Shown: piece after piece, positions 15,085 through 64,000 of the stretch | Numbering within the stretch: the stretch's first letter is position 1 | Layout of the letters: every line of letters begins with the position of its first letter | Assembly: GCA_032027085.1 (NCBI GenBank) | Contig: JAVSMS010000001.1 | Location: 1,566,332 to 1,630,331 of the forward strand | Reading direction: 5' to 3' | Source of the DNA: Pseudorhodoplanes sp. | GTDB taxonomy: Bacteria; Pseudomonadota; Alphaproteobacteria; Rhizobiales; Xanthobacteraceae | Length of the DNA: 64,000 nt | Made by a program: the position numbers and the translations under genes | The notes under the pieces: model-generated | Told to the model about the DNA's origin: nothing | The model's database searches: none | Seen by the model: the letters and a program-made list of their open reading frames with translations, nothing else

Positions 15085-16980
15085 TTATACCAAGGCGACC
15101 GCATCATACCCGGCCGCGGTATTGATGTCCTCGATCGACTCAAACGCCGTTCCGCCTCCGGTGACACCGTCGAGGGTGATGGTGCCAAAACCGAAATCGA
15201 GCGTTGTATCGACTCCGTTGTCATCCACGACAACGGTTTCGGGATCGAAGCCGTCGACAACGTCAACTTCGACCACGTCAAAGTCGGCAAAGCTCAGGTC
15301 CTCGATCTCGTCGTCGCCGAAGTCGCCGCCGGCGCCGTCACCGACATGGTGCGTATCCTGTCCGGCACCGCCGGCCGATACGTCGTCGCCGGCCTCTCCA
15401 TAGAGATGATCGTCGCCGTCGCCGCCGTCGAGCGTATCGTCGCCGTCGCCGCCGTGGATCTCGTCGTCGCCGGCGCCGCCGCTCAACTCATCGTCACCGG
15501 CATCACCCCACAGGCTGTCGGCACCGTCGCCGCCATCAATCGTGTCATCGCCGTCGCCGCCGGACACGAAGTCGGCACCGTTGCCGCCGTTGATGGTGTC
15601 GTCACCGGCATCACCCCACAGGCTGTCGGCACCGTCGCCGCCATCAATCGTGTCAGCGCCATCGCCGCCGAACGCAACGTCGGCACCGTTGCCGCCGTTG
15701 ATGGTGTCGTCGCCATTATCACCGAACAGCAGGTCCGCACCGTTGCCGCCATTGAGCTCGTCGGCGCCCTCACCGCCACTGAGCACGTCGGCCCCTGCAT
15801 CGCCATTGAGGACGTCATTGCCGTCCCAACCGTTCAGGGTGTCATTTCCGGCACCGCCGCTCAGCGTGTCGTCGCCGTCGTCGCCGTTCAGCGTGTCGTC
15901 GCCGCCGTTGCCTTCCATATAGTCGTTGCCGGCGCCGCCATTCAGCAGATCCGTACCGCCGCCACCAAACATCGTGTCGTCGCCGTCATCGCCGTTCAGC
16001 GTATCGGCACCGCCATTGCCTTCCATCCAGTCGTTGCCGGCGCCGCCATTGAGCAGATCGAGGCCAGCGCCACCGCTCATGGTGTCATCGCCGTCATCAC
16101 CGTTCAGCGTGTCGTCGCCGCCATTGCCTTCCATGAAGTCGTTGCCGGCGCCGCCATTCAGCGTATCGTTGCCGGCATTGCCGCTCATGGTGTCGTCGCC
16201 GTCATCACCGTTCAGCGTGTCGTCGCCGCCATTACCTTCCATGAGGTCGTTGCCGTCGCCGCCATTGAGCAGGTCGAGGCCGGCGCCACCGCTCATGGTG
16301 TCATCGCCGTCGCCGCCGTTCAGCGTGTCATCGCCACCATTGCCTTCCAGGGTGTCGTTGCCGCCGTTGCCGTCGATTGTATCGTTTCCGGCGCCGCCGC
16401 TCACGAAGTCATCATCGAGGCCGCCGGCCAATGCGTCATTGCCGGCTTGCCCGTTGATGGTGTCGAGGCCCGCACCGCCGCTCAGCGAGTCGTCGCCGTC
16501 GCCGCCATTGATCGTGTCGTCGCCGGCGCCGCCATCGGCTGTATCGTTGTCGGCACCGCCGTCGATCGCGTCATTGCCGGCCCCTCCTTCCAGCGTGTCA
16601 AGACCGGCGCCACCGTTGATCGTATCGTTGCCGGCATTGCCGGACAGGACGTCGTCGCCGTCCCCGCCATCGATCAGGTCGTCGCCGGCATCGCCGTCGA
16701 CCGTATCGTTGCCTTCGTTGCCGTTCAGTGTATCAAGACCCGCGTTGCCGCGGATGATGTCGTCTCCGTCATTGCCGTTGATGGTGTCGTCTCCGGCATT
16801 GCCGTTGAGCGTATCGTTGCCGGCATTGCCGTCGATGAGATCGTTTCCAGGGCCGCCGTCGACGGTATCGTCTCCGGCATCGGCAGTGACCGTGTCGTTC
16901 CCAGCCAGGCCGCTAATGGAATCAGGATCAGGGGTGCCAACGAGATTATCGTCATTCGGCGTTCCAACGATGACAGCCAT
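15085..16980 (-). CDS. RTX repeat protein, probable type I secreted cargo
   Basis: The 631-residue protein is built almost entirely of nonapeptide repeats of the GGxGxDxLx kind, from about residue 5 to 545. These bind calcium and fold as parallel beta-rolls outside the cell. The last 80-90 residues are non-repetitive and acidic, end in DAVALV, and probably form the C-terminal secretion signal. No enzyme domain is present, so it is more likely a surface or matrix protein than a toxin. The ATG at 16980 follows AGGAG on the minus strand; the first residues MAVIVGTPNDDNL enter the repeats at once. Very low pI is expected from the Asp content. Confidence 0.9.
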   Translation of the reverse strand: MAVIVGTPNDDNLVGTPDPDSISGLAGNDTVTADAGDDTVDGGPGNDLIDGNAGNDTLNGNAGDDTINGNDGDDIIRGNAGLDTLNGNEGNDTVDGDAGDDLIDGGDGDDVLSGNAGNDTINGGAGLDTLEGGAGNDAIDGGADNDTADGGAGDDTINGGDGDDSLSGGAGLDTINGQAGNDALAGGLDDDFVSGGAGNDTIDGNGGNDTLEGNGGDDTLNGGDGDDTMSGGAGLDLLNGGDGNDLMEGNGGDDTLNGDDGDDTMSGNAGNDTLNGGAGNDFMEGNGGDDTLNGDDGDDTMSGGAGLDLLNGGAGNDWMEGNGGADTLNGDDGDDTMFGGGGTDLLNGGAGNDYMEGNGGDDTLNGDDGDDTLSGGAGNDTLNGWDGNDVLNGDAGADVLSGGEGADELNGGNGADLLFGDNGDDTINGGNGADVAFGGDGADTIDGGDGADSLWGDAGDDTINGGNGADFVSGGDGDDTIDGGDGADSLWGDAGDDELSGGAGDDEIHGGDGDDTLDGGDGDDHLYGEAGDDVSAGGAGQDTHHVGDGAGGDFGDDEIEDLSFADFDVVEVDVVDGFDPETVVVDDNGVDTTLDFGFGTITLDGVTGGGTAFESIEDINTAAGYDAVALV

Positions 16981-17265
16981 AGGGGTCGCTCCTTGTTTGT
17001 CAGGATAAGTTGACGTTCCTTGGAGAATCTCAACGCAGGACGCGACCATGCGTCCGCTCCGAGATTCCTCGGGAGCATTCTGGTGACATCTGCCCGGCGA
17101 GCTTGAATCGCTTGCGTTAAAGCGATGAAGCTAAGCTCGGAAGCCGGGACGCTATGCTTGGGGGTTATCGCCAACAATCCCCATTTGGGGACAAATCTTC
17201 CACGCAAATTTTGCGGGCGCCGCGAATTTTTCTTTGCGCCTGCGCAGAAGAGAGTGTTGGCGCCG

Positions 17266-37661: not shown

Positions 37662-37775
37662 CCTTGCTTATGTTTGTCGGGTGACGCATAAGTCTGGATC
37701 TTTGGGCCATAAGTCTGTGTCAAATGACGCAAAAGCCTGACTCAGATTTTTTCAATCATTGGTTGTAGAGAAAGC

Positions 37776-37904
37776 TACGCGGCCAAGCTGAGTAATCTTT
37801 GGCGGCCCGGCTCGCTCGTTGCTCATCTTGGATCAGCCGTAAGAGAGATAATACGCAGTCCCTTCGGTGCGGAGAAACCTTGGCACAATTTCAACGAATC
37901 AAAA
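37776..37904. repeat. Direct repeat, left copy, 129 bp
   Basis: This 129-base stretch recurs in the same direction at 61225-61353 with four single-base differences and no gaps. Homology starts and stops sharply on both sides. On the minus strand both copies keep an overlapping gene junction: the last 26 or so codons of one frame (ending TADPR-stop) and, overlapping its stop by ATGA, the first 17 codons of another (MSNERAGPPKITQLGRV). Both frames lose similarity at the repeat edge, so the unit looks like a fragment of a larger element. The family is not recognised. Confidence 0.9.
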
Positions 37905-60992: not shown

Positions 60993-61224
60993 ATGAATCG
61001 AACCGCCGTTTTGTACGCGCTGATTTCCGCCGCGTTGTTTGGCGCCTCCACGCCGGCCGCGAAAATCCTGGTCGGCACGGTGCAACCTGCCGTGCTGGCG
61101 GGTTTGCTGTATTGCGGCGCGGGCCTCGGGATCGCGCTGTTGCGGCGCGCTTTGCCCTCACTGGTGCCGGGCGCTCCCGAAGTCGCACTCACACGCACGG
61201 AACTCCCCTGGCTTGCGGGCGCGT
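60993..61224 (+). pseudogene. EamA-family transporter gene truncated at the right repeat
   Basis: The frame starts MNRTAVLYALISAALFGAST, a typical first helix of an EamA/DMT transporter, and continues through the second helix to LPWLAGAL. It then runs into the 129-bp repeat at 61225 and stops at 61244. A complete protein would have about 300 residues and ten helices; only the first 76 or so remain. No other part of the gene appears after the right repeat or near the left one. Confidence 0.82.
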
Positions 61225-61353
61225 TACGCGGCCAAGCTGAGTAATCTTTGGCGGCCCGGCTCGCTCGTTGCTCATCTTGGATCAGCCGTAGGAGAGATGA
61301 TACGCAGTCGCTTCGGTTCGGAGAAACCTTGGCACAATTTCAACGAATCAAAA
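61225..61353. repeat. Direct repeat, right copy, 129 bp
   Basis: This copy matches 37776-37904 at 125 of 129 positions in the same direction, without gaps. It begins exactly where the eamA gene loses similarity, so it marks a recombination or insertion junction. Three of the four differences would change an amino acid in the minus-strand frame both copies share, so the coding potential is no longer maintained. The following 75 bases to 61427 hold no feature. Confidence 0.9.
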
Positions 61354-61427: not shown

Positions 61428-64000
61428 TTATGGCTTAGCGTTGGCTTTAGCGCGGCTTTCAGTCAGCGTGTCAGTGAGGGCCTGGTGCAGACGGTCTAGT
61501 GCGTCCTCAGTGTTGAACCACCAGTCTGTCGACCAGACTCGCAGGATCTTCCAGCCAAGACCGACCAGCACCTGTTCGCGCACCTTGTCGCGATCCCGAG
61601 CGGTCGCTGCGCTATGGTAGGTTGCCCCATCACATTCGATGCCGGCGAGATAGCTCCCGGCAAAATCCGGATGCTTAACGCCCAAATCGATCCGGAAGCC
61701 TGAAACACCAATCTGAGTTGCGACCTGCCAGCCGCGTCTTTCGAGTGCATCCTTGACTGCCGCCTCGAACGGGGATTCGATGGGTCCGGCGGAGCCTTGG
61801 TCCTGTGCCGGAAGGGAAACCGCGCCGCGCACTGCATAGTCGAGGAAAGCTTTGAGGTGTTGGACGCCCAAGGACTTCGTACGGCCAAGATCAATGTCGT
61901 CCGCCCGGATCCCGGAAAACACACGCAGTTCTCGGCGAGCACGCGTGACGGCGACGTTAAGGCGCCGCTCGCCGCCCTGCCGATTAATTGCGCCGAAATC
62001 CATCGGCAATTTTCCGGCAGCGTCCTTTCCAAAGGTGATCGAGAACAGCATGACGTCGCGTTCGTCGCCCTGGATATTCTCGAGGTTCTTTACAATGACC
62101 GGTTCAAATCGGTCATCGGAGAAGAACCATTCGAAATCCGGCTTTTCGCGGCGCAAATCATCGAGGAGATCCTGGATGAGCGTTTGCTGCTGGACATTGA
62201 AGGTGATGACGCCGAGCGTCGGGCGCTCCTCTTCCGGTAGCTTGAGCCATTCATCGAGACGCGAGGCGATGTAGCGCACAATCTCTTGCGCCTCGACGCG
62301 ATTAGTGCGGCTTTTGCCACGGTCGTAAATACCATTTGGCACTGGCATTAAGGTGACCGCCTGATCCTGCGTCACCGGGCTTGGGAAGGTGATCAGATTG
62401 TTATTGTAGTAGTGCCAGTTGGAGAAAGCGATCAGCGATTCATGCCGGCTGCGGTAGTGCCAACGCAAATTGCGCGTGGGCAGGCCGGAGGAGCACGCCT
62501 CATCGAGGATGCTTTCGAGATCGCGTTCGTGTTGGGGTATGTCGTCGTCATCATCCTCGCTGCGGCCGAAGAAATTCGTCGGGGGAAGCTGCTTAGGATC
62601 GCCTACGATAATGGTTTGTTGCCCGCGCGCGATCGCGCCGACCGCATCCCAGGTCGATATCTGCGAGGCCTCGTCGAAGATCACGACGTCGAAGAGCTCC
62701 TGGTTCGGGGGCAGGTATTGCGCGATGGAAAGTGGGGACATCAGAACGCAGGGAGCGAGCTTTCCAAAGGTCTCGGGCATCGCGCCGATCATGTCGCGGA
62801 TGGAGGCGCTCGGGCGCTGCAGGTTCATCTGATGCCGCAAGCGTCCGAGTTCGGAGTTCCTCGGCACGAGGCTCACCTGCGGCAAATTGTGCAGCAGGGC
62901 CTGGGCGACGCGGGCAGAGGCGGCCTCGCGAACGGCGTCATCTATCGCACGGAAATCGACGATTGCGTGTTCGTGCTCGAAGCGCCGGAAGTCCCGCAAG
63001 ACCTTGTTGCGATCGATGATGAGCGGCAGCCACCAGCGTGCGTATCCAAGCCTGAAGGCGGAGAGCGCGTCTTCGGGCAAAACAGCCCCCGCTTCAAGAT
63101 CCTCGACGAGTGGGCCGAGCCCCTGCGCGATTGCGCGTTCGCGCACGTCACACCAGGACGACCAGTCCCGCAACATGGACCTTGCCTGGCTGAGCTCATT
63201 CATGAGCGTCGACAGGTTCATAAGGAAATGCTCATCGTCTTTGGGCAGCGTTGCGCCCGCTATCGCCTCGAATGTCTCCATGGCGATGACAAGGACGCGA
63301 TATTTCTGCAGGAAATCTTCCGCCGCGCGCACCTGTGGCAGGTTGATTTCGCCGGTGAGATTTGCCGCAATGCTTGTGGCAATCGCGTGCATATTGCCGG
63401 CGAATTCACCGAGCTGTGTGATGGCCGTGCGGAATTGCTGGGCAGTGTCGAGATGGCTGCGTAGGGCCTGGGTATTGGTGTCGAGGCCAGCTACCGGCAG
63501 GTTGGTGCGGGCTAGGTCATTGTCGGCAACAATAGATGCGGCATTCTGCATCTGCCGGATCAGGCCAATGTCGATTGCCGGATCGACAGACTTGGCACCG
63601 GCATAGCTCGCAAGCAGGCGGCGGATCCGTCGCCGGGCAAAGAACGATTTCGGCCACATGGCAGCATTGGCCGCGCGCCAATCGCGGTCAATTTCCTCAA
63701 CCGGAATGCGTACAAGTTCGTCACGTGGATAAGGGGCGGAAAGCTTCGCCTCCAAATCGCGATAGGAGGCGATCGCGCCTTCCATGTCGCTTAATGCGTC
63801 GGCGAGAAGCGAGAAATTGCGATCGAGAATGACGTCGAAGTTCTTCCCCGAGGTTGAAATGATATTACGCGCGAGGTCCGCGAAATATTTCAGACCGTCT
63901 AATCGCGTGTCCTGGACACTATCGAGGTTAAGCCGGCGGCTCCAGCGCATAAGCGCCTCGCGCAAGTCGTCCGCCGCCTTTCCAAGCGTGCTTGCGGCCG
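61428..64000 (-). CDS. Large SF1 helicase with C-terminal Vsr/MTES_1575-type nuclease, partial
   Basis: The frame is open to the right edge, so the N-terminus lies outside. About 856 residues are visible. They contain helicase motifs II (VVIFDEASQIS), III (TIIVGDPKQLPP), IV-V (VIVKNLENIQGDERDVMLFSITFG) and VI (RLNVAVTRARRELRVFSG); Walker A must lie upstream. The last 130 residues form a Vsr-like endonuclease domain (AGIECDGATYHSA...RDRDKVREQVL..GLGWKILRVWSTDWW). This is the layout of DUF4011/DUF3320 giant helicases, often found in defence islands. It is probably involved in foreign DNA restriction or repair; the role is inferred. Confidence 0.85.
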   Translation of the reverse strand, partial: AASTLGKAADDLREALMRWSRRLNLDSVQDTRLDGLKYFADLARNIISTSGKNFDVILDRNFSLLADALSDMEGAIASYRDLEAKLSAPYPRDELVRIPVEEIDRDWRAANAAMWPKSFFARRRIRRLLASYAGAKSVDPAIDIGLIRQMQNAASIVADNDLARTNLPVAGLDTNTQALRSHLDTAQQFRTAITQLGEFAGNMHAIATSIAANLTGEINLPQVRAAEDFLQKYRVLVIAMETFEAIAGATLPKDDEHFLMNLSTLMNELSQARSMLRDWSSWCDVRERAIAQGLGPLVEDLEAGAVLPEDALSAFRLGYARWWLPLIIDRNKVLRDFRRFEHEHAIVDFRAIDDAVREAASARVAQALLHNLPQVSLVPRNSELGRLRHQMNLQRPSASIRDMIGAMPETFGKLAPCVLMSPLSIAQYLPPNQELFDVVIFDEASQISTWDAVGAIARGQQTIIVGDPKQLPPTNFFGRSEDDDDDIPQHERDLESILDEACSSGLPTRNLRWHYRSRHESLIAFSNWHYYNNNLITFPSPVTQDQAVTLMPVPNGIYDRGKSRTNRVEAQEIVRYIASRLDEWLKLPEEERPTLGVITFNVQQQTLIQDLLDDLRREKPDFEWFFSDDRFEPVIVKNLENIQGDERDVMLFSITFGKDAAGKLPMDFGAINRQGGERRLNVAVTRARRELRVFSGIRADDIDLGRTKSLGVQHLKAFLDYAVRGAVSLPAQDQGSAGPIESPFEAAVKDALERRGWQVATQIGVSGFRIDLGVKHPDFAGSYLAGIECDGATYHSAATARDRDKVREQVLVGLGWKILRVWSTDWWFNTEDALDRLHQALTDTLTESRAKANAKP

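Follow-up and report, generated by a model that had tools for sequence, protein, structure and literature searches.

A shortened ProA-family helicase-nuclease gene in a probable Tn7-like island next to gyrB in Pseudorhodoplanes

The right edge of the 64,000-nucleotide stretch of Pseudorhodoplanes DNA analysed here (the window) cuts through a very large minus-strand reading frame (61428-63998), which is still open where the window ends. A sequence-only reading had taken it for an SF1 helicase with a terminal Vsr-like nuclease, facing a direct repeat at the edge of an island, and had suggested that more defence genes may follow to its right.

The gene and its family

In the full 4,968,360-base contig the helicase-nuclease frame has 1779 codons without an internal stop (coordinates above 64000 are extended window coordinates, window position x being G000:C1:1566331+x). 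Candidate starts are a TTG at 66758 (1776 aa) and an ATG at 66668 (1746 aa). The ATG, which has a weak ribosome-binding site, is probably the start of a protein of about 1746 aa, judged by eye from the point at which homologues begin. The gene does run off the window, as a single open frame from 61428 to about 66668. Pfam profiles locate a DUF4011 domain at residues 427-597 of the 1776-aa frame, an SF1 core split into AAA_11 and AAA_12 halves about 570 residues apart, and at residues 1664-1761 (61476-61769, minus strand) a Vsr/PD-(D/E)XK-like nuclease domain, REase_MTES_1575, matched over the whole model (1-96 of 96, 121 bits), so that both the helicase and the nuclease proposed earlier are borne out. 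The gene also faces the right repeat as described, with 74 nt between its stop codon and the 129-nt direct repeat at 61225-61353.

The NCBIfam model NF058533, "anti-phage protein ProA", matches the protein with 2038.5 bits (2039.2 in a second scan) against a curated cut-off of 1500, and on these profile scores the gene is a shortened member of this already known anti-phage family, in keeping with the suspected kinship to defence genes. The match takes in positions 2-1716 (to 1718 in the second scan) of 1903, whereas the homologue L046 covers positions 2-1903; the window copy clears the cut-off but lacks the last ~190 model positions, including DUF3320. Likewise, PADLOC PDC-S37, which we take to be a candidate defence gene only, scores 1169 bits over model positions 9-1350 of 1550, the C-terminal 200 positions being absent. 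The PADLOC model for Hhe, another anti-phage protein with DUF4011, gives 552 bits, and both its helicase and nuclease halves align; membership was rejected at 803.4 bits to NCBIfam NF042953, below the curated cut-off of 2000, and Hhe is a related but different family. Mokosh systems combine a helicase with a kinase or phospholipase-D partner or domain. The MkoA/MkoC helicases of PADLOC are alike only in the SF1 core (at most 104 bits), and a Mokosh assignment was rejected, there being no kinase or phospholipase-D domain in the protein or its scanned neighbours and no adjoining Mokosh gene set. Solved relatives detectable by sequence (E up to 0.001) are the SMUBP-2 and SEN1 helicase cores only. 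A literature search on ProA, PDC-S37, DUF4011, DUF3320 and gyrB-side Tn7-like elements, to which subscription papers were mostly closed, found no paper describing ProA as a defence protein, so that the experimental basis of the NCBIfam name was not seen by us. The parts of one study that we consulted describe a DUF4011 gene present in every P. aeruginosa isolate and flanking a defence hotspot (PMC10250203). As another member of a named anti-phage family the single gene matters little.

When 84,980 species, each represented by a single genome, were scanned with a pattern-based method, 44 related loci emerged; going by record titles, almost all are alphaproteobacterial (one is from Arenimonas), and their identity to the window protein is 52-64%. 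Among the 36 homologues with a called frame above 1500 aa, 35 extend 234-261 residues beyond the end of the window protein; the exception, L062, on a separate branch of the tree and in a metagenome contig, ends a mere 14 residues further. Scans of two full-length homologues, L046 and L083, place DUF3320 in this extra C-terminal part, and all eight plasmid ProA copies viewed are annotated as "DUF3320 domain-containing". It is absent from the window protein by Pfam, no tail-coding frame was seen by eye in three frames across the 660 bases that surround and follow the stop, and DUF3320 was not found elsewhere in the genome by a search that, as a control, was positive in one of 14 named genomes. 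The nuclease is terminal in the window copy because some 240 residues with DUF3320 are missing; the earlier description therefore holds for this copy but not for the family.

Walker A (GPPGTGKS) and DEAS occur in the window protein and in 35/35 long homologues, and of the strings taken from the window protein itself VAVTRAR recurs in 33 and GDPKQLPP in 32 of the 35. The other five of nine strings so copied are found verbatim in 0, 0, 5, 8 and 10 homologues, a rarity that would be expected at 58% identity and is no proof of activity. Of the columns invariant in the other homologues, 51 of 597 differ in the window protein and 51 of 648 in the full-length L058, which lies at similar distance; all remaining rows deviate in only 0-12. 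The alignment hence gives no sign of decay beyond distance, and a recent truncation would look the same. The tree joins the window protein to L058, both being long branches, and the program, a quick method, flags the join as possibly false. Since its nuclease domain is complete and the principal helicase motifs remain, the copy probably still makes a motor-nuclease core.

Conservation of the helicase at this place in relatives, which the sequence-only reading had named as evidence against itself, was not found: the gene is absent after gyrB in all seven congeners (stretches of 3.6-12.5 kb fetched), and genome-wide six of the seven have no match and G006 a partial, distant one. These stretches hold no island, but they have no blastn match to the strain's own 120 kb either, and no clean empty site was seen. 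Some ProA match (E up to 0.001) is present in 8 of 61 genomes, its own included; G040, at 40% identity, is the only other one matching near full length, and partial matches lie partly within long frames (2116 codons in G019, 2008 in G041 and 1638 in G006). Among 72,556 plasmid records, 85 carry homologues at E up to 1e-100, and in 67 of these at least 80% of the query is covered; among 50,697 phage records, one does (E up to 1e-20; 36% identity). The ProA proteins of an Arenimonas (L086) and a Paramesorhizobium (L071) are about 95% identical across two proteobacterial classes, a likeness reflecting either recent transfer or a binning error in a metagenome contig.

Mre11/Rad50-like partner genes of the relatives

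An SbcD/Mre11-like neighbour, whole or as a remnant, accompanies ProA at 33 of the 39 informative loci; the other five of the 44 (L063, L064, L075, L087 and L088) end too soon to tell. Behind ProA, 16 loci have SbcD/Mre11-like and Rad50-like genes (the contig of L047 ends within its Rad50-like gene), two (L056 and L072) have the SbcD-like gene with the Rad50 frame absent or only a 100-aa one called, and four (L048, L053, L057 and L060) retain a mere SbcD-like remnant of the first 21-88 codons. Eleven loci carry a different, divergently oriented SbcD/Rad50-like pair before ProA (of which L066 shows the SbcD-like member only), and six (L055, L058, L062, L067, L070 and L079) have no SbcD-like neighbour. 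In the downstream SbcD cluster 13 of 16 members start -3 to +11 nt from the ProA end. Other recurrent neighbours are a PDC-S06-type protein and a UvrD-nuclease protein, at four loci each.

Family scans identify the partners as SbcD/Mre11-like phosphoesterases and Rad50-like ATPases, all below the curated NCBIfam cut-offs, with no NCBIfam match at all for the 1156-aa ATPase of the divergent type. Metallophos in both types and AAA_27 in the divergent type exceed the Pfam cut-off, and the 874-aa Rad50-like protein of the downstream type has three Pfam matches, all under it. GNHD is found in 15/16 downstream and 11/11 divergent SbcD-like proteins, and LSGG in 15/15 downstream Rad50-like proteins; the textbook Walker A expression matches none of the Rad50-like proteins (0/15 and 0/10), whose representatives read NEFGKS and NEAGKS.

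The two arrangements are unrelated to each other. In the ProA tree the divergent one forms a single clade (one change, support 100), and the co-directional one, with L056, L057 and L072 scored as "down", is scattered, requiring 9 changes where shuffles give 12.6 (16 of 500 shuffles come out as low). The co-directional pair is either old with many losses or was gained several times; we prefer the former because remnants exist. Outside the close clade, the five plasmid loci viewed (Paracoccus, Thioclava, Pseudomonas, Klebsiella and Comamonas) have by annotation a ProA without an exonuclease neighbour, and for this reason the pair is optional within one clade rather than a fixed part of ProA; these five solitary copies are all annotated as keeping DUF3320. 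On the three plasmids viewed from Bosea, Rhizobium and Sinorhizobium a "DNA repair exonuclease" adjoins ProA, followed in two of them by an "AAA family ATPase". Neither pair is near the window ProA, SbcD-like and Rad50-like genes having been sought within 120 kb, and a genome-wide search, run with no positive control, found no Rad50-like partner in this strain.

We tentatively propose, with slightly more doubt than belief, that this clade has a three-gene anti-phage machine, to which ProA would contribute the motor-nuclease and the SbcCD-like pair a second DNA-end nuclease. On this view two unrelated pairs were recruited, one co-directional behind and one divergent before ProA, as an option repeatedly lost to leave ProA alone as in the window. 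The literature on ProA, PDC-S37, DUF4011, DUF3320 and gyrB-side Tn7-like elements, as far as we searched it, does not report this linkage, which makes a testable claim on how such helicase-nucleases work and matters more than the single gene.

A probable Tn7-like island and its cargo

The 129-nt repeat at 61225-61353 is 97% identical to a direct copy at 37776-37904 (both plus strand), with partial copies at 90245-90308 and at G000:C1:820060. At 37776, 90245 and G000:C1:820060 the repeat lies just inside a transposon end that starts TGTCGGGTGACGCATAAGTCTG (altered at 90146) and has repeated sites; at 37776 it is directly inside a complete end. The copy beside ProA is the inner part of such an end, devoid of the outer three TnsB-type sites. 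The 22-base end recurs at seven places in the genome at up to 3 mismatches, and a reversed control pattern at none. The left end of the island (TGTCGGGTGACGCATAAGTCTG, three sites, 37675-37740, plus strand) begins 13 bp beyond the gyrB stop codon, with ATGTT immediately before it at 37670-37674; the right end, beyond the window at 90142, has four sites and again ATGTT on its outer side. Five bases would agree by chance in about one case in 1024. No ATGTT match accompanies a second, inner pair of ends, which meet at 88276/88281, and the piece 88281-90142 has the look of a distinct small element stacked on the same site. Repeated insertion there is suggested by the stacking of ends at 88276/88281 and at 90142/90146.

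Between the outer ends of the island, on the plus strand at 74302-82350, are tnsA-like, tnsB-like and tniB/tnsC genes and two tniQ genes. TniB (66 bits), TniQ (58 and 37 bits) and Mu-transpos_C (27 bits) exceed their cut-offs; rve (32.3 against 32.6) and TnsA (21.5 against 26.5 in Pfam, 44.8 against 110 in NCBIfam) fall short of theirs. The locus has all four gene types expected of a Tn7-like element (TnsA, TnsB, TnsC and TniQ) together with inverted site arrays and a 5-bp duplication at the ends, and the island more likely runs from 37675 to 90142. The right repeat is probably not the island edge that the sequence-only reading had made of it, its outermost sites being absent and the island seeming to extend on both sides. 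To us the arrangement as a whole suggests a composite Tn7-like island; in the presumed order of events, a rearrangement at 61.2 kb would have taken away an outer transposon end along with the ProA tail. By eye, an 83-aa frame at 60993-61244 resembles the first part of a DMT transporter, truncated where the repeat lies; it has no Pfam match.

Tn7-like transposons carrying defence cargo have been described (PMC8649781), and as far as the parts consulted go they share with the island the TnsA/B/C and TniQ-type genes, the end-site arrays and a cargo of toxin-antitoxin and defence-type genes; the island also has the 5-bp flank match. It differs from them in its divergent TnsB and its site after gyrB, neither gyrB nor DUF4011 occurring in that paper's main text. 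No TnsB relative above 31% identity was found in 385 genomes drawn from the class (E up to 1e-40). A divergent Tn7-like transposon 3' of gyrB with defence-type cargo likewise matters more than the single gene. The idea that the same transposon carries ProA elsewhere was rejected: none of the Tns proteins of this island was matched in the 44 ProA loci, in which the end-site motif gives isolated single matches only and no array. L062, with gyrB about 2.7 kb before its ProA, was considered as the same insertion and dismissed, no end motif being found, and its place after gyrB may be shared by chance. Far away in the genome, near 820 kb of G000:C1 (L019 and L098), stands a 311-bp stretch (89%) that duplicates the gyrB 3' end together with transposon end and repeat.

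To the right of ProA, profile scans recognise a DUF2130 protein (66838-68274, minus strand), rejected as an operon partner since blastp at 1e-5 finds no homologue among the frames of the 44 ProA loci. A phosphoesterase (69432-70232; PDC-S10, 51 bits), an 832-aa AAA-M41 (FtsH-like) protease (70495-72993; IetA-like AAA, 77 bits only) and a DUF6634 gene (72990-73430, by profile scan) stand in a row over 69432-73430, and frames matching the protease (31-38% over ~200 residues) occur at two of the 44 ProA loci. After the transposition genes comes an NYN gene in two pieces around what by eye is an apparent IS3-type element (82460-84366), with a ~50-bp tandem repeat at one edge of the interrupted gene. 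It is followed by a 1050-aa protein (84806-87958) with an N-terminal nucleoside-phosphorylase (PNP) domain, which scores 28 bits to effector-type PADLOC models and is possibly a defence effector; its long C-terminal part has no Pfam match. An MntA/HepT-like pair (89204-89919; HepT-like 69 bits in Pfam, PDC-S09 92 bits) lies in the small stacked piece. Genes further right, from roughly 90.8 kb on, seem ordinary: two were scanned (MgtE and a LonB-like protein) and the others inspected. Annotation beyond 64000, with five transposition genes and the defence-type genes, shows that the right-hand side is not only housekeeping; the forecast of further defence genes was right insofar as a few defence-type genes follow, but among the genes scanned there is no complete recognised system.

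Competing accounts of the window copy

In our judgement these observations rather probably reflect the horizontal acquisition of an anti-phage gene, a ProA-family member with kinship to Hhe, as cargo of a composite Tn7-like island just after gyrB; the copy lacks tail and partners and probably keeps its motor-nuclease core. From the domains, the DUF4011 half would recognise or gate, the split SF1 motor would load on foreign or damaged nucleic acid, presumably DNA, and translocate, and the Vsr-like domain would cut it. The loss of the DUF3320 tail and the absence of Mre11/Rad50-like partners would most simply stem from rearrangement beside the transposon-end repeat. One point against continued defence in this copy is that the tail, kept by 35 of 36 long homologues and all eight plasmid copies viewed, may be essential. 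The same facts could fit a decaying remnant, an open frame devoid of defence activity, from which the rearrangement joining the transposon-end repeat to the gene cut the tail and any partners. The tail missing from the protein, with no DUF3320 found elsewhere in the genome, the repeat copy bereft of outer sites and the 3' side of the operon broken at several points in relatives (the four loci with SbcD-like remnants) agree with it; against these stand about 1750 open codons with the main motifs intact and a conserved-column deviation no greater than that of L058, though only in part, since a recent truncation would leave the same picture. We consider it unlikely, while giving it more weight than any other rival.

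A natural short form, working with neither DUF3320 nor partner genes, is improbable: L062, from a separate branch, ends at nearly the same point, and the solitary ProA genes on five plasmids suggest that partners are not always needed, but L062 is the only short protein among the 36 other long homologues, and comes from a metagenome contig, and those plasmid copies all retain the tail. More improbable still is an ordinary DNA-repair or housekeeping helicase with no part in defence, to which the SMUBP-2/SEN1-type cores as sole solved relatives, the resemblance of the relatives' partners to the repair pair SbcCD and, in the part of the study seen, the core status of the DUF4011 gene in P. aeruginosa (PMC10250203) would point; its patchy distribution, with near full-length matches in one of the 61 genomes besides its own, the homologues on plasmids and the copies up to 95% identical in different proteobacterial classes argue otherwise.

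Elsewhere in the window, a minus-strand gene at 15085-17049 has a long array of 27-nt repeats which by eye encodes glycine/aspartate-rich repeats of the RTX kind.
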